From positions 1-39,226 of IMG/VR virus record IMGVR_UViG_3300027784_000769: a stretch of DNA of 39,226 nt. One strand, written 5' to 3'. Position 1 is the first letter of the stretch; the number at the start of each line of letters is the position of its first letter. Of the stretch, positions 7,647 to 35,279 are shown piece by piece. The notes under the pieces are model-generated. The model did not search any database and had not been told where the DNA came from. It saw only the letters and a program-made list of their open reading frames with translations. A program made the translations under genes and the position numbers. The stretch is from a virus.

Positions 7647-7678
7647 GCCGCCGTGCTGCAAGGCGCGGCGGTTTTTTT
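7647..7678 (+). terminator. intrinsic terminator after the tail/holin operon
   Basis: Arms CCGCCG (7648-7653) and CGGCGG (7666-7671) enclose a loop of about 12 nt, followed at once by seven T (7672-7678). It sits 30 nt after the holin-like stop codon and marks the end of the operon. Confidence 0.75.
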
Positions 7679-7881: not shown

Positions 7882-7910
7882 TTTACAAGGTGCAAAGGGC
7901 ATGTTATTAT
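7882..7910 (+). promoter_or_regulatory. sigma-70-like promoter upstream of the candidate leader RNA
   Basis: TTTACA at 7882-7887, a 17-bp spacer, TATTAT at 7905-7910. It follows a very A-rich tract (7723-7772), which could act as an UP element or curved DNA. The predicted transcript starts near 7917 and runs through a gene-free stretch into the amidoligase gene. Confidence 0.5.
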
Positions 7911-7916
7911 ATAATT

Positions 7917-8276
7917 AGAGCAAGGGCAAAACAGAAAGACAAGCAAGACCGAACCTTGAAAACAGAATAGCCGCCGCAAGCCGGGAAGACCCTAAGAGCC
8001 GGCCACAGCCAAAAGGCTGACGGGAGCAGGAACCGCGAAAGACCGGTAGGGCAAACAGAAGGGCGGAGGCAAAACTGGCAGAAAGAAGCCACGGGTGGCG
8101 CCGATAAGGAGCTGGGGAGCCGAGAGGTTTTAAAAGGAAAACACGGCGCAAGAGCCGCAAGCAAGAGCAGGCGAAAATGGCGTTGGACAGGTAAACGACA
8201 CCCCGAACGGAGCAGCCGGGTTGCAACGGTTGTTAAACATAGTGAGCCGAAAACGGGCGGCAGTTAAGCTGCCGCC
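7917..8276 (+). ncRNA. candidate structured RNA / long leader of the amidoligase operon
   Basis: About 360 nt without a convincing gene, purine-rich and dense in short hairpins: CAGCC/GGCTG around AAAA near 8006, GCCGG/CCGGC near 7979-8003, ACCG/CGGT near 8032, GTTTT/AAAAC near 8127, CGGC/GCCG around GCAAGA near 8144, CCG/CGG around AAAA near 8247, and an 8-bp stem at 8256-8276. A promoter lies just upstream and no terminator is seen before the amidoligase. It does not match a class I can name (it is reminiscent of the large ornate RNAs seen in phages). The 7617-7916 part holds the terminator, the A-rich tract and no supported gene. Confidence 0.45.
8256..8276 (+). promoter_or_regulatory. intergenic GC hairpin with TTAA-type loop (copy 2)
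   Basis: Arms GGCGGCAG (8256-8263) and CTGCCGCC (8269-8276) around loop TTAAG. The 3' arm can instead pair with GCGGCAG at 8296-8302, so this hairpin and the downstream element are potentially mutually exclusive. Confidence 0.6.
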
Positions 8277-8280
8277 GTTA

Positions 8281-8321
8281 CATTGCCGATTAGCCGCGGC
8301 AGTGCTGATGATGGCAGGCTA
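8281..8321 (+). promoter_or_regulatory. repeated leader element copy 1: hairpin, CTGATGA, pseudoknot strand
   Basis: Stem CATTGCC (8281-8287) with GGCAGTG (8298-8304), then CTGATGA (8305-8311), then a GGC-rich strand. Loop bases TAGCC (8291-8295) can pair with GGCTA (8317-8321). An A-rich stretch and the ribosome site of the amidoligase follow. Copies 2 and 3 precede other genes in this module. Confidence 0.5.
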
Positions 8322-8348
8322 AACAAAACTTTTAAAGGGGTGCTGAAA

Positions 8349-9194
8349 ATGAAAAAGATCGTTAACAGCTTTAATGAAGAAAGAACTTTTGGAGTAGAGA
8401 TTGAGTTTGTGCATAACAACGCGGAGCAGGTTGCAGCTAAAGTGAGGGAATACGGGTTGGATTGCAGGGTTGAACATTATAACCACGAAGATCGAACATG
8501 GTGGAAGATTGTTACCGACGCAAGCGTGCAGGCGCGGAACGGCCAGATTGGCCGCGGACTTGAAATTGTTAGCCCGATTTTAAAAGGCCGCGAAGGGCTT
8601 GCAGAAATTGAAACTGTTTGCGCCGCGCTGGAACAAGCTGGCGCCGACGTTAACGTTACAGCCGGCTTGCACGTGCATCACGACGCAAGCGATTTTAACG
8701 TAAACAGCTTTAAAAACATAACCTTACTTTATACCCGTTACGAAAAAACAATAGACAGTTTAATGCCGCGCAGCCGCCGGGCAAACGGGAACCAATATTG
8801 CAAGAGCTTGTTTGATGCCCGGATGGGCAGCTTTAGCAGCGACGAAGCGTTTATGAATTGGATTTACAATGCCAGCAGCACTGACCAACTGTTAAACTTT
8901 TTTACAGACCGGTTTTTAAAGCTTAACTTAAGGGCTTACCGGGCGCACAGCACGGTTGAATTTAGGCAGCACAGCGGAACGGTTGAAGCGCCGAAAATTA
9001 TAAACTGGATTAAGTTAACGCAAGCAATGGTTAACAAGGCGACTGACCGCAACGTTTTGAACCCCAAAAACGTTGACGATAGCTGGAAAAGCTTTAAGAA
9101 AGCCGTTGCACTGACCGGATACCGCGGCGCTGACGAAGAACTGCAGCAAGTGCAGAAATTTTACGGCAAGCGCCAGAAGCAGTTAGCAAGCTAA
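8349..9194 (+). CDS. phage amidoligase (Amidoligase_2-like)
   Basis: 281 residues from ATG 8349, preceded by AAAGGGGTG. It shows the order of motifs of the COOH-NH2 ligase (glutamine-synthetase-like fold) amidoligase family: FGVEIEF near residue 14, GLEIVSP, GLHVHHD near residue 107, and a C-terminal 'RAHSTVEFRQHSGT'. The acidic and His residues in these motifs are those expected for ATP and metal binding. Family members ligate a carboxylate to an amine, making isopeptide or peptide bonds; phage substrates are not known. A gamma-glutamylcyclotransferase lies 3 kb downstream, a pairing known from comparative genomics of this family. It is the first gene after the candidate leader RNA. Confidence 0.8.
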   Translation: MKKIVNSFNEERTFGVEIEFVHNNAEQVAAKVREYGLDCRVEHYNHEDRTWWKIVTDASVQARNGQIGRGLEIVSPILKGREGLAEIETVCAALEQAGADVNVTAGLHVHHDASDFNVNSFKNITLLYTRYEKTIDSLMPRSRRANGNQYCKSLFDARMGSFSSDEAFMNWIYNASSTDQLLNFFTDRFLKLNLRAYRAHSTVEFRQHSGTVEAPKIINWIKLTQAMVNKATDRNVLNPKNVDDSWKSFKKAVALTGYRGADEELQQVQKFYGKRQKQLAS

Positions 9195-9203
9195 CAAGGC
9201 GAA

Positions 9204-9265
9204 AGCAGCGCGCACGACCGGCGCTGCTCTGCAGCGGTGGCGCCGCTGCACTGATGAGCCAGCCA
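9204..9265 (+). promoter_or_regulatory. repeated leader element copy 2: two hairpins, CTGATGA, pseudoknot strand
   Basis: First hairpin: AGCAGCGC (9204-9211) with GCGCTGCT (9221-9228). Second hairpin: GCAGCGG (9231-9237) with CCGCTGC (9243-9249), loop TGGCG. Then A, CTGATGA (9251-9257), and GCCA twice (9258-9261 and 9262-9265). Loop TGGC can pair with GCCA. An A-rich run and the GGGAGTTG ribosome site of the next gene follow. Confidence 0.55.
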
Positions 9266-9294
9266 GATAAAAAAAGGGGAAGGGAGTTGTTAAC

Positions 9295-9780
9295 ATGGAA
9301 CGGACGGGCGTTAAGTTGGAGGGCATTGAACGGCAGTGGGAATTTATGTTAGCAGGGAACGCGCTGCTTACCATTGAAAACGAACAGACCGGCAGCCGTT
9401 ACACTTACCGGATTAAAGGCCGCAAGACTGGCAACGGCAAGATCCTTTACTTTGTTAACGTTTTAAGCGGCAGCAATAATGAAACGGATTATAGATACGT
9501 TGGAACCATATTTTTTGAAAAGGGCGCTGCAGAGGGTGAGTTTAGGCTTACCAGTAAAAGCAGGGTGAGCGCACAGTGCAAGAGCTTTAAGGCGTTTTAC
9601 TGGTTGTTTAATATGCTGCAGCAAGGAAACGCGCTGCCGGAACATATTAACTTTTACCATGCCGGATCTTGCGGCAAGTGCGGCCGGACTTTAACAGTGC
9701 CGGAAAGCATTGAAACCGGACTGGGGCCGCATTGCCGGCAGAACATTGGAACAAGCGGATTGCGGACACTGGCAAGCTAA
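9295..9780 (+). CDS. DUF6011-like phage protein with C-terminal zinc knuckle
   Basis: 161 residues. The first 110 residues are mixed alpha/beta and contain 'TGSRYTYRIKGRK' and 'YVGTIFFEK'. The C-terminal part 'SCGKCGRTLTVPES' followed by GLGPHC is the zinc-binding signature (CxxC then GxGPxC) of DUF6011, common in phage and actinophage replication or single-strand-binding-associated proteins. Function is unknown; a nucleic-acid-associated role is plausible. It lies downstream of leader element copy 2 and 18 nt before the next gene. ATG 9295 follows GGGAGTTG. Confidence 0.6.
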   Translation: MERTGVKLEGIERQWEFMLAGNALLTIENEQTGSRYTYRIKGRKTGNGKILYFVNVLSGSNNETDYRYVGTIFFEKGAAEGEFRLTSKSRVSAQCKSFKAFYWLFNMLQQGNALPEHINFYHAGSCGKCGRTLTVPESIETGLGPHCRQNIGTSGLRTLAS

Positions 9781-9797
9781 AAAAGGAGGGATTGTTA

Positions 9798-10052
9798 ATG
9801 ATTTACATTTTATTGGAAACAGGAAAATGGTATAAGGGCGAAACTTGTTTGGACTTGGTTAAAGCACTGCGCGACGCGACTTGGATGGTTGAAAACAATA
9901 TACGTTATATGGAAGGCGTTGCGCAGCGCTGCCGGATCTGGAACGGTGATGTGCTGCAGTTTAACAATGAAGATGAATTTGTTGCAGAACTGCTGCGCGC
10001 TGGCGTTATTAAAGAAATGGTTGTTAAGGAGGAAGATACGGTTAATGGATAG
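9798..10052 (+). CDS. small phage protein, unknown
   Basis: 84 residues from ATG 9798, which has AAAGGAGGG upstream. It begins with a beta-strand (MIYILLETGKWYKG), then a helix (CLDLVKALRDATWMVENN), then a C-terminal helix (DEFVAELLRAG). It is acidic in the C-terminus (EEDTVNG). I recognise no family. It follows the DUF6011 gene by 17 nt, so is probably co-transcribed. Confidence 0.55.
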   Translation: MIYILLETGKWYKGETCLDLVKALRDATWMVENNIRYMEGVAQRCRIWNGDVLQFNNEDEFVAELLRAGVIKEMVVKEEDTVNG

Positions 10053-10062
10053 GGCGCAGCGG

Positions 10063-10091
10063 TTGACAGGCGGCCGCTGCCGCCTTATAAG
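10063..10091 (+). promoter_or_regulatory. sigma-70-like promoter with palindromic spacer
   Basis: Perfect TTGACA at 10063-10068, 17-bp spacer, TATAAG at 10086-10091. The spacer contains GGCGGC and GCCGCC arms, and the -10 box lies inside a longer inverted repeat (10081-10122), so the site could be repressor-controlled. Confidence 0.55.
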
Positions 10092-10122
10092 TGCAGCCGG
10101 GGCCGGTTGCATTTATAAGGCG
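10081..10122 (+). repeat. 20-bp inverted repeat and alternative hairpin upstream of a small gene
   Basis: 10081-10100 and 10103-10122 are complementary over 20 positions with two G-T mismatches. The inner part reads CAGCCGG then CCGGTTG. The 3' arm overlaps a second hairpin, TAAGGCG (10116-10122) with CGCCTTA (10130-10136), so the two folds exclude each other. This resembles an attenuator or operator just after a promoter. Confidence 0.6.
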
Positions 10123-10162
10123 CTTAAAACGCCTTAAAATCAATTTTAAAGGGGTGCTGACA

Positions 10163-10489
10163 ATGACTGAAAGGGAATTGCAAGTATTGGAGATCAGGGA
10201 ACGGATTGCAAGGGAAAAGCTGGTTGAAAGTATTAAAGACGCAGTTGATACGATTAATAGGTTTGCCGGTGAAGGCAGCCGTTACGTTGAACGCTTGGAA
10301 GAACAGGACGATCGCGTTGCAATATGGGAGCGCGCAAGCTGGTTTATTAACCACGTAAATAATATGAGCTTTAATATACCGCTTGACCGGATCGCGCGCG
10401 ATGCTGCAGAACTGGCAAAAATACAGGGCATGAAGCAGCAGCTTGATAACGAAATAAACCGTAAAAGTGAAGAAGAAGGGCTTATTTAA
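10163..10489 (+). CDS. small helical phage protein, unknown
   Basis: 108 residues from ATG 10163 after AAAGGGGTG; the ribosome-site context (TTTTAAAGGGGTGCTGA then one base and AATG) is almost identical to that of the amidoligase, suggesting a duplicated leader. The protein is almost entirely helical and charged (ELQVLEIRERIAREKLVES; ARDAAELAKIQGMKQQLDNE), probably a coiled coil. No family recognised. Confidence 0.55.
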   Translation: MTERELQVLEIRERIAREKLVESIKDAVDTINRFAGEGSRYVERLEEQDDRVAIWERASWFINHVNNMSFNIPLDRIARDAAELAKIQGMKQQLDNEINRKSEEEGLI

Positions 10490-10515
10490 CCTAAAATTTT
10501 AAGGAGGGCTTTATA

Positions 10516-10893
10516 ATGGCAAGGGCATTGACTGGCGTTAAGGCGCTGCAAAACGAAATTGAACGGAAGGGCAGTTTGGTTATAAGCGACGGAACCATGC
10601 GGAACAGCGATTTGCTGGAAGCAATGGTTGATTTAGTGCAGGCTTACGATCTGCGGCCAGAATGGCGCAAGGAAGCGGAACGGCTGGTTTACGGCGATAA
10701 TGAAGTGCCGGCGCCGCCGGAAGAAGCGCTTAATGACTGGGATGGTGAATGTTTTGATCAGGCGATAATATTGATCCACGAAGAAGCGTGGCCTTACTTG
10801 GACGAGATTGCCGCCGGCATTGATGCCGACTTTGGGTGCCATCCCGGCGACGGCGCGCTGGTTGGCTTCTTTTATGAAGGAGTTTTAAAATAG
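10516..10893 (+). CDS. acidic phage protein, unknown
   Basis: 125 residues, acidic, with helices and an aromatic C-terminal half (EEAWPYLDEIAAGIDADFG, GALVGFFYEGVLK). No catalytic motif or family is recognised. AAGGAGGG lies 8 nt before ATG 10516. The gene ends directly before leader element copy 3. Confidence 0.55.
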   Translation: MARALTGVKALQNEIERKGSLVISDGTMRNSDLLEAMVDLVQAYDLRPEWRKEAERLVYGDNEVPAPPEEALNDWDGECFDQAIILIHEEAWPYLDEIAAGIDADFGCHPGDGALVGFFYEGVLK

Positions 10894-10898
10894 CCGAA

Positions 10899-10968
10899 AG
10901 GCCGCGGTTATGGCTGACGCCGCGGCCTCTGCAGCAGGTTTGCCACTGCTGCACTGATGAAGGCAGGC
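10899..10968 (+). promoter_or_regulatory. repeated leader element copy 3: two hairpins, CTGATGA, pseudoknot strand
   Basis: First hairpin: AGGCCGCGG (10899-10907) with CCGCGGCCT (10920-10928). Second: GCAGCAG (10931-10937) with CTGCTGC (10946-10952), loop GTTTGCCA. Then A, CTGATGA (10954-10960) and GGCA (10962-10965), which can pair with loop TGCC (10941-10944). The corresponding pair in copy 2 is TGGC/GCCA, a compensatory change. An A-rich run and GGGAGTTG follow as in copy 2. Confidence 0.55.
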
Positions 10969-10996
10969 TGCAAAACAAAAAAGGGAGTTGATTGCC

Positions 10997-11311
10997 ATGC
11001 GTTTTGAAGAAATTTTAGCGGACAAGGTTTTAATGAACCCTAACAGGTTAATCAGGCAGCAGGTTAAATATTGCCTGCCGAACGGCGCTGTTTTGGCCGT
11101 GCTTGATAAGCCAGAAGCGCAAGAGCTTGTTTTAAGCAAAAAGGCAAGCGTTGCAGGGGATGACAAGATCGTTGAGTTAGTTTGCCCGGATTGCGAAAAT
11201 ATGGGCATGGTATTTAAGGATGACGGAACGGAAGAATATTGCAGTTTATGCCGCTGGGGTGCAGAGCTTAAGGCGGAAGCTGCTGAATATGGAGGTGGCT
11301 GCAATGCGTAA
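10997..11311 (+). CDS. small zinc-ribbon phage protein
   Basis: 104 residues from ATG 10997 after GGGAGTTG. Residues about 1-60 are mixed alpha/beta; the C-terminal third has CPDC and CSLC about 20 residues apart, a typical zinc ribbon (VCPDCENMG, EYCSLCRWG). Such modules bind nucleic acid or protein; the specific role is unknown. Its stop overlaps the next start by 8 nt, indicating translational coupling. Confidence 0.6.
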   Translation: MRFEEILADKVLMNPNRLIRQQVKYCLPNGAVLAVLDKPEAQELVLSKKASVAGDDKIVELVCPDCENMGMVFKDDGTEEYCSLCRWGAELKAEAAEYGGGCNA

Positions 11312-11501
11312 AACGAAAACAAAAGGCGCGCTTAACTGCGCCGATTGCGGCGTGGAAATGATCGGGGAAGCGGCAGCGCTGCTGCACGATCTGCAGCGCG
11401 AGCCGATCTTTACGGTTTACAATGCAAAGGGAACGATCTGGCGCTTGATCTGCAAGCGCTGCTTTTGGGAACTTACTAACAAAACAGAAGGAGGATCTTA
11501 A
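11304..11501 (+). CDS. small CxxC zinc-binding phage protein
   Basis: 65 residues from ATG 11304 after GGAGGTGG. Two Cys pairs, NCADCG near the N-terminus and LICKRCFWE near the C-terminus, form a probable zinc finger around a GEAAALLHDLQ helix. It ends in NKTEGGS. It overlaps the previous zinc-ribbon gene by 8 nt and is followed one base later by the next start codon. Function unknown. Confidence 0.6.
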   Translation: MRKTKTKGALNCADCGVEMIGEAAALLHDLQREPIFTVYNAKGTIWRLICKRCFWELTNKTEGGS

Positions 11502-11502
11502 A

Positions 11503-11763
11503 ATGAGTGAAGTTTACGGTGCAGTTGTAGGAAACCGCGGCAAGGCAACGCGGCAGGGATCAAAAGAAAGCGGCATAAGGGCCGCCGCGCAAAGCTGGGA
11601 AGGCAGCGTTATAACGGAACTTTACCAGTGGCAAGGCGAAAAATGCGTGCGGATCACGATTAACGAAGGCAGCACAGATGAACATTATAGCGGAAATACG
11701 CTGTTTAATGGCACGTTGGCCGAACTGAAAGAGTTGGCCGCCGAAAAGGAACGGGAGGGTTAA
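11503..11763 (+). CDS. small phage protein, unknown
   Basis: 86 residues. It begins with MSEVYGAVVGNRGKATRQG and continues into a beta-rich core (VITELYQWQGEKCVRITIN) and a C-terminal helix (LAELKELAAEKER). The Gly/Arg-rich N-terminus could bind RNA or DNA. No family is recognised. AAGGAGG precedes ATG 11503 and the gene is tightly packed between neighbours. Confidence 0.55.
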   Translation: MSEVYGAVVGNRGKATRQGSKESGIRAAAQSWEGSVITELYQWQGEKCVRITINEGSTDEHYSGNTLFNGTLAELKELAAEKEREG

Positions 11764-11768
11764 GCGTT

Positions 11769-12014
11769 ATGACAGAGTTTATTGCAGGGATGGATCAAGT
11801 TTTGCTGACGCGGTTGGCTGCACTGGCAGCCGCCGCGTTGGCCGGAGCATTGCTTGTTAAGTTTGTTGACAGTATAATGGGATCGGTATATGCGCGCAGG
11901 CGCGCAAGGCTGCGCCTTGTTGCAGCGTTACGGGCGCGCGGCATTATGCGACCCCGGCTGCAGCAGAATTATAAAAGACATAAACGCCAAAAAGAAGGGT
12001 TTTGGCGGTTGTAA
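11769..12014 (+). CDS. small membrane protein with basic cytoplasmic tail
   Basis: 81 residues. A single transmembrane helix lies at residues about 12-33 (TRLAALAAAALAGALLVKF), followed by a strongly basic tail with many Arg and Lys (YARRRARLRLVAALRARG, NYKRHKRQKEG). The charge pattern predicts the tail inside the cell. It begins 5 nt after the previous stop, with a ribosome site GGGAGGG inside that gene. Role unknown; it could sit with the next small membrane protein. Confidence 0.55.
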   Translation: MTEFIAGMDQVLLTRLAALAAAALAGALLVKFVDSIMGSVYARRRARLRLVAALRARGIMRPRLQQNYKRHKRQKEGFWRL

Positions 12015-12035
12015 AAGACAAAGGAGTTGGGTGGT

Positions 12036-12143
12036 ATGAACGAAGCAGCTTTTGATTTTTTTGTTAACTTTTGGTTGTTTGGCTTTATGTTATGGGTGCA
12101 AGGTGTTTGCATATATATTTTAAAAGTAAGAAGGGGTGAATAA
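12036..12143 (+). CDS. 35-residue membrane protein
   Basis: ATG 12036 follows AAGGAGTTGGGTGG. The peptide has one hydrophobic, aromatic-rich segment (FDFFVNFWLFGFMLWVQGV) and ends in KVRRGE, giving an inside-positive C-terminus. The stop TAA at 12141-12143 is one base before the next start codon, so the two genes are coupled. Small phage membrane proteins like this often act in lysis or host takeover, but nothing here proves it. Confidence 0.5.
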   Translation: MNEAAFDFFVNFWLFGFMLWVQGVCIYILKVRRGE

Positions 12144-12144
12144 C

Positions 12145-12633
12145 ATGGGCAAAAAAATGATATATTTCGCTTATGGCAGCAACTTAAACTTAAGGCAGAT
12201 GAAGCAGCGCTGCCCGGACGCACGGCCGATCGGAGTGGCAAAGCTGCCCGGACACAGGCTGGTTTTCCGCGGCGTTGCTGACGTGATACCTAACAGGCAG
12301 GGCGGATCGGTTATGGGTGTTATATGGGAAATAACGCCGCGCTGCTTAAAGGAGCTTGATCGTTATGAAGGTTATCCGCATTTATACGGCCGGCGATACT
12401 GCACGGTGATCGGCGAAGATGACGGCATATTGCGCGAAGCGATCGTTTACTATATGAAGAAGGGCGATCTTGCGCCGCCGAGCCGCGGATACTGGAAGGT
12501 GATCATGGAAGGATATAATGACTTTTGCATGGTGCCACGGCGCGATCTGCTGGAACCGAATTATGGTTACGGGAACGCGCGGCTGGACTATGATTGCGAA
12601 AAGTATTATCAGAGCGTTTTGCATTGGTATTAA
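12145..12633 (+). CDS. gamma-glutamylcyclotransferase-like protein (AIG2/GGCT fold)
   Basis: 162 residues from ATG 12145. The N-terminal YFAYGSNLN is the hallmark loop of the GGCT/AIG2 family, followed by GHRLVFRGVADVIP, a 'GSVMGVIWEI' strand and LDRYEGYP, where the Glu is the expected catalytic acid/base. The family cleaves gamma-glutamyl amide bonds to give 5-oxoproline and free amine. In a phage operon headed by an amidoligase, one enzyme may make and the other remove or trim gamma-glutamyl-type links. An in-frame GTG at 12136 is less likely because it is inside the ribosome site AAGGGGTG. Confidence 0.8.
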   Translation: MGKKMIYFAYGSNLNLRQMKQRCPDARPIGVAKLPGHRLVFRGVADVIPNRQGGSVMGVIWEITPRCLKELDRYEGYPHLYGRRYCTVIGEDDGILREAIVYYMKKGDLAPPSRGYWKVIMEGYNDFCMVPRRDLLEPNYGYGNARLDYDCEKYYQSVLHWY

Positions 12634-12645
12634 AGGGCTTTACAG

Positions 12646-12699
12646 GCAGCGCAAGCGGCCGCCGTTTGTGCTGCTAATAAAGCCGCTTTAAGTGGCTTT
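12646..12699 (+). terminator. pair of hairpins ending the amidoligase module
   Basis: First stem: 12646-12657 pairs with 12663-12674 over 12 bp including two G-T pairs, loop GCCGC. Second stem: AAAGCCGC (12679-12686) with GTGGCTTT (12692-12699), followed by T-rich sequence to 12710. The second hairpin has the look of a weak intrinsic terminator; the first adds stability. Confidence 0.5.
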
Positions 12700-12723
12700 T
12701 AATAACTTTTGGGAGGTGGTTAT

Positions 12724-12981
12724 ATGGATAAACGGCCGGAAGTGCCGCTGCCGGATATGCTGGATACGCTTAAGGCGTTAAGGCTTTACCGGAAGCGATC
12801 ACTGCGGCAGGCTGCAGAAGTGCTGGGCTTGAGCAGCAGTGGTTTGAGTTTGATCGAAAGTGGAGATCGGAGTTTATCGCTGCAACGTGCAGCGGACATG
12901 GCGGCGCTCTATGAAGTGGATCTGGATACCATATATAAGCTTTACAGGGCGACACGCAAACAAAAAAAGGAGGATGATTAA
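12724..12981 (+). CDS. XRE-family helix-turn-helix regulator
   Basis: 85 residues from ATG 12724 after GGGAGGTGG. It is a single Cro/C1-type HTH: LKALRLYRKRSLRQAAEVLGLSS, then SGLSLIESGDRSLSLQRA and ALYEVDLDTIYKL. The whole protein is the domain plus a short basic tail (RATRKQKKEDD), so it has no effector domain and probably acts as a dimer. It opens the replication block and is a good candidate to bind the palindromes around promoters at 10063, 15881 or 22816. Its stop is two bases before the next gene. Confidence 0.75.
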   Translation: MDKRPEVPLPDMLDTLKALRLYRKRSLRQAAEVLGLSSSGLSLIESGDRSLSLQRAADMAALYEVDLDTIYKLYRATRKQKKEDD

Positions 12982-12982
12982 A

Positions 12983-14068
12983 GTGGGTAAAAAGACATTG
13001 TTGCAAGTGGCGAATGAAGTGGAGCATGATCAGCGCGGAAAGATCGACTATGTTTTGCCGTTTAGGAACCTTTACATGGATGATAACGGTGGATTTGCTT
13101 TTAAGCGCGTTAACGAAGTTCAGATACCTTATGCGCACGAAAGCACGGCGCGACAGGCAGATGTTAGGCTTGAGCCGAACGACTGGGCCACGGGCCAGCT
13201 TTTAGGGCGGCTTAATATGCCGGCTGAATACTTTAAGCGCCTGTTAACACAAAGGGAAGCGGCGCCGTGGCTGTTTGCGAGCCATTTCAATTACTGGGCA
13301 AGCCGGACGAATAAGCATATAAGGTTAAGGGCAAAACTCTATAACGGCAACGGAACGGGCGTTGTGCGCGGCGCAGTTAGCGACAAATATAGCATATTGG
13401 ATAATGATACCGTGATCAGCACTTTAGCCGGCATAATGCAAGGCAGGGAAGATGACTTTGAAATAGTTGACTTCCATTTAGACGATCGCAGGATGAACCT
13501 GCGCGTGGCTTATAACGATTTAGCCGTGCAGCTTGGGAACCTGCCGGGCGGCGAAGCTGACTGGAACAAGCTGGGCAGCGACTTTGTGAATAGCGAAGTG
13601 GGTGCAAGTGCTTTTAACCTGCAGGCGTTGATCTGGCGCTTGATCTGCAGCAACGGCTTGCGTGGCTGGGATCAGCAGGGCGAAGCATTTACACAGCGGC
13701 ATATTCACTTAAGGCCGATCGAGTTTCAAGGCCGGATTGCTGATGCTATAGTTAACAGCTTGCAGACCGGGCAGGACTTTTTGAACGCCTTTAAAGACAC
13801 GCAGGAAAAGCAGATTAATGACCCGTTTGCTGTTATTAAAAAACTGGCAAACGATGGCAACTTTAGCCGGCAGTTTACGGATCAGGCCGTTTCAGAGTGG
13901 GAAGGCCACGATACCGCTTATGGCGTTGTGAACGCCTTTACACGTGCAGCGCGCACGTTACCGAACGAGCGCCGGCTGGAAGCGGAAAGCTATGCTGGGC
14001 GGCTGACACGTTTGCCGGCCGAACAGTGGGATAAAATAAGCGAAGAAGCAATATTGGAAACAGCTTAA
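12983..14068 (+). CDS. DUF932-family phage protein
   Basis: 361 residues from GTG 12983, with AAAAAGGAGG placed 9 nt upstream; an in-frame ATG at 12974 abuts the ribosome site and is less likely. The sequence has the DUF932 (YfjQ-like) pattern: HLRAKLYNG-like strand here as HIRLRAKLYNG, VRGAVSDKYSILDNDTVI, NLRVAYND, 'GFNLQALIWRLICSNGL' region and a helical C-terminus. DUF932 proteins are common on plasmids and phages near recombination and replication genes; the biochemical role is unknown. It lies directly upstream of the SNF2 helicase. Confidence 0.7.
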   Translation: MGKKTLLQVANEVEHDQRGKIDYVLPFRNLYMDDNGGFAFKRVNEVQIPYAHESTARQADVRLEPNDWATGQLLGRLNMPAEYFKRLLTQREAAPWLFASHFNYWASRTNKHIRLRAKLYNGNGTGVVRGAVSDKYSILDNDTVISTLAGIMQGREDDFEIVDFHLDDRRMNLRVAYNDLAVQLGNLPGGEADWNKLGSDFVNSEVGASAFNLQALIWRLICSNGLRGWDQQGEAFTQRHIHLRPIEFQGRIADAIVNSLQTGQDFLNAFKDTQEKQINDPFAVIKKLANDGNFSRQFTDQAVSEWEGHDTAYGVVNAFTRAARTLPNERRLEAESYAGRLTRLPAEQWDKISEEAILETA

Positions 14069-14083
14069 AAAGGAGCGATCAGT

Positions 14084-15820
14084 ATGTATATATTAACAGC
14101 GGCGGAAGGTGGCGGCCTCGTTTACCGGGGCCGCTATAACCGCAACTTGATCAGCATAATAAAACAACTGCCGGGCCGATCATATAATCCGGAAACTAAA
14201 GAATGGTTCCTGCCGGCAGAGCCGGAGGTTGTGGAAACGCTGGAAAACAACGGCGTTGAAATAACGGCCGAAGCGCGCGAGCTTGTTAGGCAAAAAGTGG
14301 AAGCGCAGGAAATGATCGCGCAGGCGAAGGATCAGGCCCGGCCAGAACCAGCAAAGCCGATGCCGCTTAAGGGCCATATTGAACCTTTTGCGCATCAGAT
14401 CAAGGGCTATAATATCAGCTTAATGCACAGCGCAGCCGGTTTATTGCATGAACAGGGCTGCGGCAAAACTATAACCGCGATCGCAACGGCCGGGCGCCGT
14501 TACCTTGACGGTGAAGTTAAAAAGCTGTTAATCGTTGCGCCGTTAAGCGTGATCCCGGTTTGGAAAGCAGAGTTTGAAGAAGCCGCTGACTTTAACTTTG
14601 TGGCCGTTACGCTGCAGGGTGATAAAGCAAAACGGCAGCAAGCACTTGTTGATCTGCAGGAAGTGAATGGCGCACTGCAGGTTGCGCTTGTTAATTATGA
14701 AGGATACTGGCGGCCGGGGATCTTTGAAATGCTGCTTGGGTGGAACCCGGACATGGTTATAGCCGACGAAAGCCAGAGGATCAAAAATCATACCGCAAAG
14801 CAGAGCAAGGGCTTGCATAAGATCAGCGACAAGGCCGGCTTTAGGATGATCCTGACTGGAACGCCGGTTACGGCGACGCCGCTGGACTTCTTTAGCCAAT
14901 ATAAGTTTCTTGATCCGGAAGTGTTTGGCAAAAGTTATTACTCCTTCCGGAACAGATATGCGATCATGGGTGGTTACGAAAATCGCGAAGTTGTGGGATA
15001 CCGTAACAAGGATGAACTGGTTAGGAAGGCGCACAGTATAGCGCACAGAGTAACAAAAGAGGAAGCGCTTGATCTGCCGGAGTGGATCGATCAGGATCTT
15101 TATTGCGATCTTGAACCGAAGGCGCGCCGTTATTATAACGATATGTTAAAAACTAACATGGCAGAAATTGAAAACGAAAAACAGCAGCGCGGCCGGCTGG
15201 TTGCGAGCAACGTATTAACAAGGCTGCTGCGCTTGCAGCAGATGGTCGGTGGTTTTGTGCCACGCGATCAGGATGAAGATCAGGAATTTAACGCGGAAAG
15301 CGCTGAAATGATGCAAGTTAGCAGCGCAAAGCTTGATCTTTTAAAGGAAACGCTGGGCGATCTGCTGCACGCAGGACACAAAGTTGTTATATTCGCGCGC
15401 TTTGTGCCGGAAATTAAGGCCATTATGAAGCTGCTTGATGAAACAAAGTTTAACGGGCTGGGCCGGGCCGGATACCGTTATATTTACGGCGCTGTTAAGC
15501 AAGAGGATCGCGGCGCTATGGTTGATCAGTTTCAGAACGACCCGGAGATCCGCGTATTTATTGCGCAGGTGCAGACAGCCGGGCTGGGGATCACGCTGCA
15601 CGCGGCAGACACGGCCATATTTTACAGCGCTGACTTTAATTATGGCAATTATGATCAATGCAAGGCGCGCGTTCACAGGATCGGGCAGCGCCGGCCGGTT
15701 AATTACTTGCATTTAATCGCGAAGGATACCGTGGACGAAAAAATATACCGGGCCATTAAACAGAAGCGCAGTTTGGCCGACGACGTGGTTAATAATTGGA
15801 AACAATACTTTGCGAAATAA
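14084..15820 (+). CDS. SNF2-family helicase/translocase
   Basis: 578 residues. A short N-terminal region (residues 1-60; RGRYNRNLISIIKQLPGRSY, then WFLPA) resembles the HARP-like module of SMARCAL1-type proteins. The ATPase core follows: motif I EQGCGKT at about 123-129, Ia LLIVAPLSVI, DESQ at about 227 (the DEAD-box position), motif III LTGTP, then the second RecA lobe with VIFARF, 'VFIAQVQTAGLGITL' and motif VI VHRIGQ near 531. SNF2 proteins translocate on duplex DNA; HARP types anneal or remodel forks, so a replication or recombination role fits its place before the SSB-like and primase-helicase genes. AAAAGGAG precedes ATG 14084. Confidence 0.85.
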   Translation: MYILTAAEGGGLVYRGRYNRNLISIIKQLPGRSYNPETKEWFLPAEPEVVETLENNGVEITAEARELVRQKVEAQEMIAQAKDQARPEPAKPMPLKGHIEPFAHQIKGYNISLMHSAAGLLHEQGCGKTITAIATAGRRYLDGEVKKLLIVAPLSVIPVWKAEFEEAADFNFVAVTLQGDKAKRQQALVDLQEVNGALQVALVNYEGYWRPGIFEMLLGWNPDMVIADESQRIKNHTAKQSKGLHKISDKAGFRMILTGTPVTATPLDFFSQYKFLDPEVFGKSYYSFRNRYAIMGGYENREVVGYRNKDELVRKAHSIAHRVTKEEALDLPEWIDQDLYCDLEPKARRYYNDMLKTNMAEIENEKQQRGRLVASNVLTRLLRLQQMVGGFVPRDQDEDQEFNAESAEMMQVSSAKLDLLKETLGDLLHAGHKVVIFARFVPEIKAIMKLLDETKFNGLGRAGYRYIYGAVKQEDRGAMVDQFQNDPEIRVFIAQVQTAGLGITLHAADTAIFYSADFNYGNYDQCKARVHRIGQRRPVNYLHLIAKDTVDEKIYRAIKQKRSLADDVVNNWKQYFAK

Positions 15821-15837
15821 TAGCTGCAAAGATGGAG

Positions 15838-15880
15838 GCCGGGTCTAACAGGGTATAATAAAGGACAACGTTGACCCGGC
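15838..15880 (+). repeat. interrupted palindrome upstream of a strong promoter
   Basis: GCCGGGTCTAAC (15838-15849) and GTTGACCCGGC (15870-15880) pair over 11 bp with one bulged T. A TATAAT-like box (15854-15859) lies in the 20-nt loop. The right arm abuts the -35 box of the promoter at 15881. This could be an operator or a leader hairpin. Confidence 0.55.
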
Positions 15881-15909
15881 TTGCACTGTTTGCAGTTAGG
15901 TTGTATAAT
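15881..15909 (+). promoter_or_regulatory. sigma-70-like promoter for the replication operon
   Basis: TTGCAC at 15881-15886, 17-bp spacer, perfect TATAAT at 15904-15909. The next ribosome site GGGAGGTG is at 15934-15941, ahead of a small frameshifted gene and then the coiled-coil, SSB-like and primase genes. Confidence 0.65.
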
Positions 15910-15940
15910 AACAAAACAGCGAGCAATAATTCGGGAGGTG

Positions 15941-16091
15941 ATGTTAAAGCTGGATAAAGCTAAAAAATGGCGCCGTAAAGGCCGCCAGAACCGCTGACAG
16001 GTATAAACGCCTTTTAATAGACTTAAAACTTGACAGCGGCGCGATAAATAGCCTTTACAACTATTTTAAAGGAAGGAGGAACGTGGTATAA
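15941..16091 (+). pseudogene. small basic gene interrupted by a +1 frameshift (error, decay or programmed)
   Basis: After GGGAGGTG, a frame from ATG 15941 (or CTG 15950) encodes MLKLDKAKKWRRKGRQNR and stops at TGA 15995-15997. One base over, an open frame runs through the same DNA to TAA 16089-16091 and reads as a natural continuation (KAARTADRYKRLL, then IDLKLDSGAINSLYNYFKG). That second frame has no ATG, GTG or TTG of its own, and its TAA overlaps the next ATG as TAATG, a coupling seen elsewhere in this genome. A shift around 15972-15982 (CGT AAA GGC CGC) would give one 49-residue basic protein. Function unknown; a DNA-binding role is possible from its charge. Confidence 0.5.
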
Positions 16092-16501
16092 TGGCAATGG
16101 ACAGGATTTTTGAATTGGCTGACCGTTATAAGGAGCTAAAGGAAGAAAAGGACGCGTTGCAGGGCAAGCTTAAAGAGCTTAACAAGCAGCTTGAAAAAAC
16201 GAACGATGAACTTACTGCTGAAATGGTTGATAATGAACTGCAAAACTTTCAGCGCGGCGATCGCACGTTTTACCTGCAAACAAAACTCCACGCGCACGAC
16301 CTTAAAGACAAGCGAGATCAGCTTTATGAAGTTTTAAGGAAGGAGGGATACGGCGATCTAATTAAGGAAACCGTGAACCCTAAGACCCTTGAAAGCTTTG
16401 TTAGGGAGCAGATCGAAGAAAACGAAGGCGACCTGCCAGAGTGGATCAGGGAGTATGTTAGTGTTTACGAAAAAGACGTTGTGGGCATGAGGAAAGCTTA
16501 A
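16091..16501 (+). CDS. phage coiled-coil protein of the replication operon
   Basis: 136 residues. Residues about 5-50 are a heptad-type coiled coil (YKELKEEKDALQGKLKELN); the rest reads 'RGDRTFYLQTKLHA', then 'LRKEGYGDLIKETVNPKTL' and 'FVREQIEE', a pattern I associate with a common but uncharacterised phage family found next to SSB-like genes. It probably oligomerises; its partner may be the next protein. ATG 16091 overlaps the stop of the preceding frameshifted gene (TAATG) with GGAAGGAGG upstream. Confidence 0.6.
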   Translation: MAMDRIFELADRYKELKEEKDALQGKLKELNKQLEKTNDELTAEMVDNELQNFQRGDRTFYLQTKLHAHDLKDKRDQLYEVLRKEGYGDLIKETVNPKTLESFVREQIEENEGDLPEWIREYVSVYEKDVVGMRKA

Positions 16502-16534
16502 AAAAACTAACATTATTAAGGAGGATTTTAAAGT

Positions 16535-17287
16535 ATGCCAGAACAGAAAAATGCGTTGGCAGTTGTAGAGGGTTTTGACGCGCCTGCACTGCTTGACAGT
16601 GCGGACGTTATGGAAGAAATGGATGGTTTACAATTTAGGTTTACGAATGTTAAGGTGCCGAGTGGCGGCGGCTTAACGTTTGAATTGCCGGGCGATGATG
16701 ACGACGAACCAGAAATTGAAAAAGAACTGGAAGGCGTTATAGTGCATCATCACCCAGTTAACGTTTATTTTAAAGACAGCTATGACGGCACGAACGCGCC
16801 GCCTGATTGCGTTTCCTATGATGGAAAGTTTGGCGTTGGCGAGCCGGGCGGCCATTGCAAGACCTGCGAACTGAACGAATGGGGAACCGGGCGCGATGGC
16901 GAAGGCAAGGCTTGCAGCAATAGGCGCCGTGTTTACCTGCTGCGGCAGGGCGAGATGTTTCCGCTGCTGGTTAGTTTGCCGCCGACTTCTTTAGGCAACT
17001 TTAGCGACCTGATTAGCAGGAAGATCCTGCAAAAAGGCAAAAGGAGCCATGAAGTTGTAGTTAAGGCAAAGCTTAAGAAGGTTACTTCTAACAGTGGCAT
17101 TGAATACAGCCGGATAAGCTGGGCCGTTACCGGGCAGCTTGATCAAGAAGCCGCGCAAGCGATGAAACAATACGGCGAGAGCATTAAAGCTCTGGCCGGT
17201 GGCTTAACGGTTGATCAGGTTGAAGGTGAAGCCGATCATAGCAGCGAACCGAAATGGGAAACCGGCGACTTTCCAGAAGATCTATAG
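16535..17287 (+). CDS. phage single-stranded-DNA-binding-like protein with Cys cluster
   Basis: 250 residues. A central Cys set (PPDC, then GGHCKTCELNEWG, then ACSNRRRVYLL) suggests a zinc site within a beta-rich, OB-like core. The C-terminus is acidic and ends DFPEDL, reminiscent of the acidic tip by which SSB proteins recruit partners. Position immediately before the primase-helicase supports an ssDNA-binding role. The protein does not match the classical bacterial SSB motif, so the assignment rests on layout and tail. AAGGAGG precedes ATG 16535. Confidence 0.5.
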   Translation: MPEQKNALAVVEGFDAPALLDSADVMEEMDGLQFRFTNVKVPSGGGLTFELPGDDDDEPEIEKELEGVIVHHHPVNVYFKDSYDGTNAPPDCVSYDGKFGVGEPGGHCKTCELNEWGTGRDGEGKACSNRRRVYLLRQGEMFPLLVSLPPTSLGNFSDLISRKILQKGKRSHEVVVKAKLKKVTSNSGIEYSRISWAVTGQLDQEAAQAMKQYGESIKALAGGLTVDQVEGEADHSSEPKWETGDFPEDL

Positions 17288-17300
17288 GTTGAACCAGCAG

Positions 17301-17335
17301 GGCGGCAGGCTGCAGCAAGTGGGCGGCCTGCCGCC
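17301..17335 (+). promoter_or_regulatory. GC hairpin before the primase-helicase gene
   Basis: A perfect 10-bp stem: GGCGGCAGGC (17301-17310) with GCCTGCCGCC (17326-17335), 15-nt loop, followed by TTATT but no long T-run. It separates the SSB-like gene from the primase and may slow transcription or protect RNA ends. Confidence 0.55.
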
Positions 17336-17338
17336 TTA

Positions 17339-17376
17339 TTGAAGGAGGCTTAATATATTGAAGGAGGCTTAATATA
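17339..17376 (+). repeat. tandem 19-bp duplication of the ribosome-binding site of the primase gene
   Basis: Two exact copies of TTGAAGGAGGCTTAATATA lie head to tail at 17339-17357 and 17358-17376. The second supplies GAAGGAGG for ATG 17376; the first could drive a four-codon peptide (TTG AAG GAG GCT TAA) ending just before the real start. Confidence 0.85.
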
Positions 17377-19991
17377 TGGCGGACTATGACAGGCTTGTAA
17401 ACTGGGAACAGTTTTACAAGGATCGCCTGCAAAACTGGGAAATGAACAACGGTGAAATAAAGGCGTTATGTCCGTTTCACAGCGAAAAAGAGGGCAGCTT
17501 TACGGCAAAGCTGGACAATGGGCTTTGGAAGTGTTTTGGCTGCGACTTGGGTGGCAACGGGATAACCTTTTTACAAAAAACGGAAGGCTTAAGCAAAGAT
17601 GACGCCTTTAAGGTGCTGAATAAGTATGCTTCCGAAAATATACTTAAAAAACAGGAAGAACGGCGGAAATATACCGTTGAAGATTATGCGAACGCAAAAA
17701 AGCTTCCGACGCAGTTCTTGCAGGAGCTTGGTTTAAAGAATACAAAGCTGGGGATCACTATACCTTATATGGACGAAGCCGGATCCGTGTTAAGCACGCG
17801 GCGCAGGTTTGGCGATGCCGGCAGTGGGCCGAAGTTTACATGGAGCCGGGGAAGCAAGGTGATCCTTTATGGTTTATGGCGCCTGCCGGAAATACGCAAG
17901 CAGAAGCGCGTTTTTTTGGTTGAAGGCGAAAGTGATGCGCATACGCTCTGGCATCACGGCGAGCCGGCTTTAGGCGTGCCGGGTGCAAGCGTGTTTAAAA
18001 AGGAATGGATCAGTCAATGGCTGCAGGATCTTGAGCAGATTTACGTTGTGCAGGAACCGGATCAGGGCGGCAGCACTTTTATTCAAAAAGTGGCCGAAGC
18101 TTGTTACCATGCCGATTATAGAGGCAAGGTGTTTGCGGTTGATCTGTTTGATGAACATAAAGATCCGAGCGAATTACACTGCGCAGACCCGGACAAGTTT
18201 GCTGAACGCTGGCAATCGGCCGTTACGAATGCGCGCGAGTTAAACGTTGCGGAGATCACTAATAAGAGCAGCGATACGCTTACAGACGCGCCGGTGCAGT
18301 TAAGGCAGCCGTCAGGCTGGCGCTTTACAGAAGATGGGATCGTTACCATTGACGATAATACCGGGCTGCAGGTTACTATCTGCAGGACGCCGATCTTAAT
18401 ACAGCGCCGGATCCGATCGTTGGAGGACGGGCAAGAAAAGGTTGAAATATGTTATCAGCGCGACGGTGAATGGCATAGCGAAATCGTGCCGCGATCAACG
18501 TTGTTTCAGGCCCGATCGCTGCCAATTCTTGCGGATTTAGGTATGACCATAACAAGCGAAAACGCGAAACCGCTTGTTAAGTTTTTTCAAGCGCTGGAAC
18601 AGGAAAATTATGATCTGCTTGAAACTGCAAAAAGTATATCGCAGCTTGGGTGGCATGGCAACTTATTTTATCCCGGCAATGCCGGCGATCTGCTGGTTGA
18701 TGTTGAACCGGCCACGCGGCAATGGGTGGAAGCTTACTGCGAAGAAGGCACGTTGGATCAGTGGAAAGAGGTTGTGGGCGCAGAACGCGAAAAAAGCGAT
18801 ATATTGCGCCTTATGATCGCGGCCAGCTTTGCGGCGCCGCTGCTTGCAATAATTAGACATAGGAATATTATATTGCACAACTGGGGAACCACGCGGATCG
18901 GCAAAACAGCCGCCTTAAAAGCGGCTTTAAGCGCTTGGGGCGACCCGGAGCAGTTAATGACTTCCTTTTATGCGACTAAAGTGGGCATGGAACGGATCGC
19001 AGGCTTTTTCCGGGATCTGCCGCTGGGCATTGACGAAAAACAGGTTGCAGGCAATGACGATTTTTTAAACAGGCTGCCTTATATGCTGGGATCAGGGCAA
19101 GGCAAGGTTCGCGGCAGCAAGGGCGGCGGTTTACAGCAGACGCAGCACTGGCGCACGGTTGCAATTACAACGGGCGAAGAACCGCTGGTTGTAGATAATG
19201 CGCAGGGCGGCCAATATACAAGGGTTGTGGAGGTTAAAGGCGCGCCGTTTGCAAGCGAAAAAGACGCGCAGCGTATGCACGAACTTAACAGTTTCGGCCA
19301 CGCCGGGCCGCTGTTTGTGCGCAAGGTTACAGAAGCAGGCACGGAAGCACTGCAGGATCGTTATACTTTTATGAAGGATCATTTAGCAGATACACTGACA
19401 CAGGCGCACGATTTAGTTCCCAGCCACGCGGCCGCGCTGGTTGTGTTTGCGTTTGCTGATATGCTGGTTAGCGAATACGTGTTTCAAGAAGATCCAGAAG
19501 TGGCCGAAGCGGAAGCGGTGAACTTTGCACTGCGCAGCGCTGAAATGATGGTTAAGCAATCGGAAGCAAGTTTGGCCGAGCGTGCTTACCATAGGATCGA
19601 GAGTTGGATTAATGCGAATGCCTTGCGGTTTGAAGATGAAGAAATTACTCCGCGTTATGGATGGCGTGAAGGCAATATTTATTATATACTGCCGCACGAA
19701 CTCCGCAACTTCCTCAAGCGCGAAGAAATGCCGCTGGAAAGCACAGTTATCGCAGCATTGGCAGAAGCCGGTTATTTAATTACAGGGCAAAAGGAAGCAA
19801 ACAGCCGGGGCCGCAAGCAGATCGTTAAACGGATTGACGGCGGAACGAAGCGTGTTTACGCGTTGCGTCTTAAGCGCGTTGATGAAGATAAAATAGACGC
19901 TGAAACCGATTATTATCCGCCGCCTGCAGCAAGGGATCCAGAACCGGCGCCGGAGCCAGAACAGCAGGAACGCTGGTATGATCAGGATTAG
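17376..19991 (+). CDS. primase-helicase (CHC2 zinc finger, TOPRIM, DUF927 helicase)
   Basis: 871 residues. A CHC2 primase zinc finger lies at the N-terminus: C32, H35, C53, C56 (LCPFHSEKEG, WKCFGCDLGG). A TOPRIM region follows, VFLVEGESDA at about 181-190 and VVQEPDQGG. From about residue 330 comes a DUF927-type helicase: SQLGWHGN, ILHNWGTTRIGKTAALKA (Walker A near 503-510), LPLGIDEKQ (Walker B-like), WRTVAITTGEEPL. A winged-helix-like C-terminus ends in an acidic Pro/Glu-rich tail. It should prime and unwind at the phage origin, with the iteron region directly downstream as the likely site. No separate polymerase is in the window. Confidence 0.85.
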   Translation: MADYDRLVNWEQFYKDRLQNWEMNNGEIKALCPFHSEKEGSFTAKLDNGLWKCFGCDLGGNGITFLQKTEGLSKDDAFKVLNKYASENILKKQEERRKYTVEDYANAKKLPTQFLQELGLKNTKLGITIPYMDEAGSVLSTRRRFGDAGSGPKFTWSRGSKVILYGLWRLPEIRKQKRVFLVEGESDAHTLWHHGEPALGVPGASVFKKEWISQWLQDLEQIYVVQEPDQGGSTFIQKVAEACYHADYRGKVFAVDLFDEHKDPSELHCADPDKFAERWQSAVTNARELNVAEITNKSSDTLTDAPVQLRQPSGWRFTEDGIVTIDDNTGLQVTICRTPILIQRRIRSLEDGQEKVEICYQRDGEWHSEIVPRSTLFQARSLPILADLGMTITSENAKPLVKFFQALEQENYDLLETAKSISQLGWHGNLFYPGNAGDLLVDVEPATRQWVEAYCEEGTLDQWKEVVGAEREKSDILRLMIAASFAAPLLAIIRHRNIILHNWGTTRIGKTAALKAALSAWGDPEQLMTSFYATKVGMERIAGFFRDLPLGIDEKQVAGNDDFLNRLPYMLGSGQGKVRGSKGGGLQQTQHWRTVAITTGEEPLVVDNAQGGQYTRVVEVKGAPFASEKDAQRMHELNSFGHAGPLFVRKVTEAGTEALQDRYTFMKDHLADTLTQAHDLVPSHAAALVVFAFADMLVSEYVFQEDPEVAEAEAVNFALRSAEMMVKQSEASLAERAYHRIESWINANALRFEDEEITPRYGWREGNIYYILPHELRNFLKREEMPLESTVIAALAEAGYLITGQKEANSRGRKQIVKRIDGGTKRVYALRLKRVDEDKIDAETDYYPPPAARDPEPAPEPEQQERWYDQD

Positions 19992-35146: not shown

Positions 35147-35223
35147 GGGGCCGGTTTGGGATCGGCAAGTGTTAACGCCTGCAAGGCAGCGCTTGTATCC
35201 GGGTTCAACTCCCGGCGGCTCCA
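35147..35223 (+). tRNA. tRNA/tmRNA-like element B with its own promoter
   Basis: GGGGCCG (35147-35153) pairs with CGGCTCC (35216-35222) over 7 bp with one G-T. A perfect T arm follows canonical form: CCGGG (35199-35203), TTCAACT, CCCGG (35211-35215). The 5' part GGGGCCGGTTTGGGATCGGC recalls the start of tmRNA. Inside is GGC/GCC around AAGTGTTAAC, like a D arm, and a hairpin with no U-turn anticodon. It ends in TCA rather than CCA. A T-run at 35242-35248 could end the transcript. It is most like the tRNA-like domain of tmRNA with the message part missing. Confidence 0.45.
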
Positions 35224-35279
35224 TCAGCAACGGAACTGCAGTTTTTTTATAAGCTTGGAAAAAGGAGGTGTTCTATTTA

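Follow-up and report, generated by a model that had tools for sequence, protein, structure and literature searches.

The window analysed here is the whole of IMG/VR virus record IMGVR_UViG_3300027784_000769, a stretch of 39,226 bases that belongs to a tailed phage, as judged from its primase/helicase, terminase, portal and virion genes, all of which lie on the + strand. Three copies of a repeated element are found on the same strand, and each has a GC-rich hairpin, an invariant CTGATGA (8305-8311, 9251-9257 and 10954-10960), an A-rich run and a ribosome-binding site, directly followed by the ATG of a gene (8349, 9295 and 10997), as the first-pass annotation had described. Copy 1 comes after a non-coding leader and before an amidoligase gene, copy 2 lies between this gene and a gene with a DUF6011 motif, and copy 3 precedes a small Cys-rich gene. 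We are confident that the three elements are type II hammerhead ribozymes placed at the gene boundaries of a phage operon, where they probably segment the mRNA. The hammerhead identity is almost certain for copies 2 and 3, and only slightly less so for copy 1.

The CTGATGA is one strand (CUGAUGA) of the hammerhead core. Its partner strand, in which GAAA follows GCC or GGC, is found directly upstream of each copy, with the upstream core halves at 8246-8252, 9198-9204 and 10893-10899. This 5' half had been missed earlier; the copies had been located, but they start at about 8246, at 9198 and at 10893 and not at 8281, 9204 and 10899, and position 8281, taken for the start of copy 1, is instead the predicted 5' end after cleavage. 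The core strands CUGAUGA and GAA(A), the A15.1-U16.1 pair and an H17 that is not G (A in copy 1, C in copies 2 and 3) are present in all three copies, and in all three stems I and III are closed by loops and stem II is open. Copy 1 (8246-8322, + strand) begins with the 5' strand of stem II (8246-8248) and GAAA (8249-8252), followed by stem III up to U16.1 at 8279 and A17 at 8280; after the predicted cut at 8280/8281 come stem I (8281-8304), CTGATGA and the 3' strand of stem II (8313-8315). The corresponding parts of copy 2 (9198-9265, + strand) are 9198-9200, 9201-9204, stem III to 9228, C17 at 9229, a predicted cut at 9229/9230, stem I at 9230-9250 and the 3' strand of stem II at 9258-9260, and those of copy 3 (10893-10974, + strand) are 10893-10895, 10896-10899, stem III to 10928, C17 at 10929, a predicted cut at 10929/10930, stem I at 10930-10953 and the 3' strand of stem II at 10962-10964. 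Stem I has 8, 9 and 8 base pairs (bp) in copies 1, 2 and 3, stem II has 3 bp in each, and stem III has 5, 8 and 10 contiguous pairs, resuming beyond a bulge in copy 1.

In every copy loop I can form a pseudoknot with the 3' tail, of 6, 4 and 5 Watson-Crick pairs respectively. A strand able to pair with the hairpin loop had been pointed out before, and this applies to copy 1 too, where TTAGCC (8290-8295) pairs with GGCTAA (8317-8322). The TGGC/GCCA pairing suggested for copy 2 (9238-9241 with 9262-9265) stands, but the TGCC/GGCA pairing suggested for copy 3 does not, as it uses the stem II strand GGC at 10962-10964; a pairing of TTTGC (10939-10943) with GCAAA (10970-10974) leaves stem II intact.

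In Rfam, the type II hammerhead family (Hammerhead_II, RF02276) matches copy 2 (9197-9268) with a score of 42.4 bits, which exceeds the gathering score of 37, and when this single family was searched over the record, copies 2 and 3 obtained E values of 3.8e-9 and 6.4e-6. A scanner for the full motif, which demanded GAAA, CTGATGA, A15.1-U16.1, an H17 that is not G, a minimum of 4 bp in stem I as well as in stem III, and a minimum of 2 bp in stem II, found exactly three matches in the window, the same three copies, and none in 200 dinucleotide shuffles. CTGATGA alone is unremarkable, with four occurrences in the window against 1.9 expected, and at least four in 14 of 100 shuffles; the fourth, at 32424, has no hammerhead around it according to the scanner. 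Rfam matches to CsrC, mir-449, RsaF and similar families were far under their cut-offs and were taken as chance; among 14 control genomes, Rfam gave matches at E <= 1 in five and above cut-off in none.

Relatives of the locus were sought by scanning IMG/VR with an alignment of amidoligases. The amidoligase of one of them, L262, is 77% identical to that of the window, and its record has three Hammerhead_II matches (41.3, 32.0 and 21.2 bits). Two of these ribozymes are at places orthologous to copies 1 and 2, one before the amidoligase and the other between the amidoligase and the DUF6011 gene, and the third follows a homologue of the gene at 9798-10052, a place that is similar to that of copy 3 but not the same. 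Copy 1 differs from its L262 orthologue by five two-sided and three one-sided changes in the stems, with one pair broken in one of the phages and one unpaired in both; copy 2 differs by eight two-sided changes with no pair broken. Between copy 3 and the third L262 ribozyme there are seven two-sided changes, and three pairs are broken in one of the two. The comparison was ungapped from the base of each stem, so the bulge in stem III of copy 1 counts against that copy. More distant relatives, L263-L265, with amidoligases 43-44% identical, have a ribozyme directly after the amidoligase. In L193 the order is amidoligase, a gene like that at 9798, a ribozyme (48.9 bits) and a cyclotransferase, and here no ribozyme directly follows the amidoligase. 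A scanner match in L198 lacks support from Rfam. Scans with the single proteins amidoligase, helicase and primase turned up no relatives, and Hammerhead_II gave no match in THSA-485A and FP_Epona, two annotated phages with related primases.

A larger set of ribozymes was drawn from 120 viral stretches among the matches listed for one pattern, which had TGC/GCA fixed at the base of stem I, so that the sampling is not random. Ribozymes were detected by the scanner in 105 of these stretches, and the remaining 15 were left out; 192 matches, the three of the window included, gave 186 distinct ribozymes when identical ones were removed. In 129 distinct matches to the pattern, 4.27 of the five further stem III pairs were Watson-Crick on average, against 2.19 when partners were swapped; the corresponding means were 2.65 and 1.12 for the three further stem I pairs, and 2.24 and 1.46 for the three pairs of stem II. 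A pseudoknot of at least 4 bp was possible in 98 of the 186 distinct ribozymes, whereas 200 swaps of the tails gave 39.3 on average and never more than 53. These controls leave the relatedness among the loci in place, and the loci are not phylogenetically independent. The earlier statement that the stems differ but stay paired is thus borne out by the two-sided changes against L262 and by the larger set, and the covariation in homologues on which the first-pass annotation had let its proposal depend is found in both stems and pseudoknot.

The position of the ribozymes relative to the genes is also regular. An open reading frame (ORF) in the same direction ends at most 20 nucleotides (nt) before the GAA in 149 of the 186 ribozymes, compared with 25 of the 196 further occurrences of CTGATGA in these loci, and the commonest distances from stop codon to GAA are 2, 3 and 6 nt (34, 25 and 24 of the 151 that lie between -20 and 40 nt). 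When the window is left out, the stop codon is 0-8 nt before GAA in 123 of 183 ribozymes, and with one ribozyme per locus this holds for 68 of 102, while 81 of 102 have it within 20 nt. These distances come from a simple ORF rule and not from a gene caller, and 18 of the 183 have no upstream stop within its limits; many of the downstream starts that the rule places at -4 are the ATG inside CTGATGA itself and were not used as evidence. In the window, 6 nt separate the stop codon TAA (9192-9194) from the GAA of copy 2, and the first stem II base of copy 3 is the G of the stop codon TAG at 10891-10893. Immediately upstream of copy 1 lies the non-coding leader instead of a gene. Where a locus has several copies they are all on one strand (39 of 39 loci). 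The most extreme case is the record IMGVR_UViG_3300017605_000570 (L027, G003), where Hammerhead_II matches 24 times within 7.6 kb (9932-17520), always on the same strand, about one ribozyme per small gene. The scanner finds 21 in the stretch examined, of which 20 have a stop codon 1-7 nt before GAA and 20 an ATG at most 22 nt after the core (at 16-22 nt in 18). Record L103 (G004) has 11 Rfam matches and, in the stretch examined, 12 scanner matches, 11 of them with a stop codon 2-11 nt before GAA.

From the observed sequence, structure, covariation, orthology and position we infer that the elements cleave, that they segment the transcript and that the phage benefits from it. Self-cleavage is assumed on the ground that type II hammerheads in tandem have been reported to cleave where the core is intact. 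Each ribozyme would cut itself in the transcript after H17, with predicted cuts after 8280, 9229 and 10929. The RNA upstream of a cut would end in the stem III hairpin with a 2',3'-cyclic phosphate, and the downstream RNA would have the stem I hairpin at its 5'-OH end and keep a ribosome site of its own. A long transcript would in this way be divided into the leader RNA, an amidoligase mRNA of 949 nt (8281-9229), a four-gene mRNA of 1700 nt (9230-10929) and the remainder. Hairpins at both ends of an RNA should slow the end-dependent decay that takes place in bacteria, and the gain may be a set of hairpin-capped, separately controlled pieces of RNA. We hold segmentation of the mRNA to be the function with a probability that is somewhat better than even.

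The leader RNA (7917-8245, + strand) would have its 3' end set by copy 1, and its start is put at 7917 from a promoter-like site. These some 330 nt contain no gene, and a region of 343 nt is 81% identical to L262 (about 1565-1890). A terminator-like hairpin (7647-7672) and the promoter-like site (7882-7910) lie upstream of copy 1, and the count of such promoters is not above that of shuffled sequences. The leader has no Rfam match over cut-off, and no blastn match in the annotated phage collection. A 20-base motif in it, CGAACCTTGAAAACAGAATA at 7950-7969, is found again in 29 stretches of viral and 84 of bacterial DNA, and in several of the bacterial ones it stands just before 16S rRNA or tRNA genes, as seen by eye in part of the listing; we take it to be, probably, an antitermination signal of the boxA type.

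Several observations weigh against the reading of all three elements as working ribozymes with a function in this operon. Copies 3 and 1 are below the gathering score of RF02276, with 30.1 bits (10892-10972) and 20.7 bits (8245-8323), and when this family alone was searched over the record copy 1 also falls short of E 0.001. In copies 1 and 3 a single additional base separates CTGATGA from stem II. Energy folding recovers the hammerhead stems for copy 2, and for copy 3 with a shifted stem II, and the minimum-energy fold of copy 1 is a competing one that is not a hammerhead. Among relatives, any scanner match at all is found at only 4 of 80 amidoligase loci, those of the four best-matching amidoligases (the fifth best, L266, and the other 75 have none), and at 3 of 82 primase loci. 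Finally, in the account of in vitro assays by Perreault et al. (2011, PMC3088659), 4 of 18 hammerheads similar to the consensus were inactive.

Another explanation is that cutting is regulated. A signal could shift copy 1 between two folds, or a ribosome terminating at the stop codon could cover stem III and the GAA strand and thereby restrict cutting to times of low upstream translation. In favour of this are the more stable alternative fold of copy 1 and the closeness of the stop codon to GAA, which goes as far as being a part of stem II in copy 3, but short spacers alone would put a ribozyme beside a stop codon, and no extra conserved domain is seen in or beside the ribozymes. In L262 the copy 1 orthologue does fold as a hammerhead by energy and the copy 2 orthologue does not; the competing folds are therefore not conserved, and the alternative fold of copy 1 was rejected as a conserved switch. 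Regulated cutting is in our opinion unlikely. Slightly less likely still is that the ribozymes are selfish or neutral, being short elements that have spread among phage genes and are tolerated because cuts between cistrons do little harm. Copy number and gene partners do vary (a ribozyme lies at most 250 nt upstream in 1 of 52 DUF6011 loci, in addition to the amidoligase and primase counts above), and regulation specific to the DUF6011 or amidoligase genes was rejected on the counts for those two genes. Yet between the window and L262 the stems have been rewritten and kept by two-sided changes, which implies selection on the fold, and the copies of the window differ in all stem sequences, unlike recent insertions.

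The first-pass annotation had thought of a cis-regulatory RNA class, possibly one that senses a ligand, a protein or the state of translation. A repeated cis-acting RNA with an invariant core it is, but it is the type II hammerhead of Rfam and not a new class of leader. The location before genes and the pseudoknot would fit a sensing leader that does not cleave, in the manner of a riboswitch, but each copy has the complete hammerhead core and three stems, the ribosome sites lie, by sequence, outside the paired parts, and the genes downstream of the three copies are according to Pfam unrelated to each other. There is no terminator-like site on the + strand at 8246-11400, nor between any copy and its gene, and thus no sign of a riboswitch expression platform. 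We consequently reject a ligand riboswitch, and regard a leader that senses a ligand or protein and does not cleave as very improbable.

Segmentation by ribozymes could be a more general phenomenon. We tentatively propose, as a possibility that is less likely than not, that type II hammerheads are punctuation in phage operons: the ribozyme would fill the spacer, with stem II at the upstream stop codon and the tail at the next ribosome site, and release each cistron or block of cistrons as a separate mRNA that starts and ends in a hairpin. Since a terminating ribosome would cover the core, translation of the upstream gene may be coupled to cutting. The conserved leader before copy 1 has a motif like that of rRNA leaders, and it is conceivable that the transcript of the window is antiterminated and then cut like an rRNA precursor, by RNA instead of by RNases. 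The arrays in L027 and L103 look as such a function would predict, and are a pointer to it from sequence. The orthologous set (the window, L262, L263-L265 and L193) together with the rule of a core next to a stop codon forms a compact and testable system, with three ribozymes, defined cut sites, predicted products of 949 and 1700 nt and a prediction on the coupling to translation.

The elements are a known class of ribozyme in a new phage, and in themselves the three are ordinary members of it. Prophages with clusters of type II hammerheads that have a loop I/3'-tail pseudoknot, a feature of the majority of the members, are described by Perreault et al. (2011, PMC3088659), who report that tandem ones cleave in vitro. 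The copies share with RF02276 the core, the permutation with an open stem II, this pseudoknot and the occurrence of several copies flanking genes of phages or prophages; they differ in the phage, in the gene partners (amidoligase and DUF6011), in the extra base before stem II in copies 1 and 3, and in that copy 1 follows a conserved non-coding leader and not a gene. The closest arrangement is that at ardA of Agrobacterium tumefaciens, where three hammerheads flank two blocks of genes and, according to the same paper, self-cleave both in vitro and in E. coli; the genes and sequences are others than in the window, and the likeness noted here is one of arrangement. Riboswitches and attenuator leaders are also structured RNAs before genes, with a pseudoknot, but no terminator or sequestered ribosome site was found at the three copies, which have a catalytic core instead of a conserved aptamer. 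The role of hammerheads in phages and prokaryotes is called an open question in a 2017 review (PMC6155905). Less expected are the position of most such ribozymes, right against the upstream stop codon, and the 24 copies on one phage contig; in the open-licence literature searched we saw neither the abutment nor arrays of tens of copies, and claim no priority for them.

The nearest annotated relative of the primase is that of Thermoanaerobacterium phage THSA-485A (45.5% identity), which hints at a host of the Clostridia type. The amidoligase gene (8349-9194, + strand) matches PF12224 with an E value of 8.3e-47. The gene at 9295-9780 (+ strand), which would be the first in the predicted 1700-nt mRNA, has a C-terminal zinc-ribbon-like DUF6011 motif (PF19474, E 1.3e-11), and the gene 3' of copy 3 (10997-11311, + strand) encodes a Cys-rich protein of 104 amino acids. 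The amidoligase and a gamma-glutamyl cyclotransferase (12136-12633) have their genes near each other in several phages, i.e. in the window, in L193 and in Bacillus phage 031MP004 (L207), which suggests a cassette for gamma-glutamyl modification. The spacer at about 10055-10163, before the gene at 10163, has by eye several GC-rich palindromes and an inverted repeat of the type TTATAAG...CTTATAA, and no hammerhead according to the scanner for core and three stems. Far downstream, at 35147-35226 (+ strand), an element of 80 bases resembles a tRNA and fits the tmRNA model at both ends, the middle being absent (50.1 bits); ARAGORN calls neither a tRNA nor a tmRNA there. The element is retained in a relative (G012:C1:5849-5924, or L455 1501-1576) with 38.3 bits and other stem sequences. 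In both, inspection by eye shows that a normal anticodon arm is absent and that the acceptor stem has the G3-U70 pair of alanine identity, and the element is possibly a phage mimic of tRNA-Ala.

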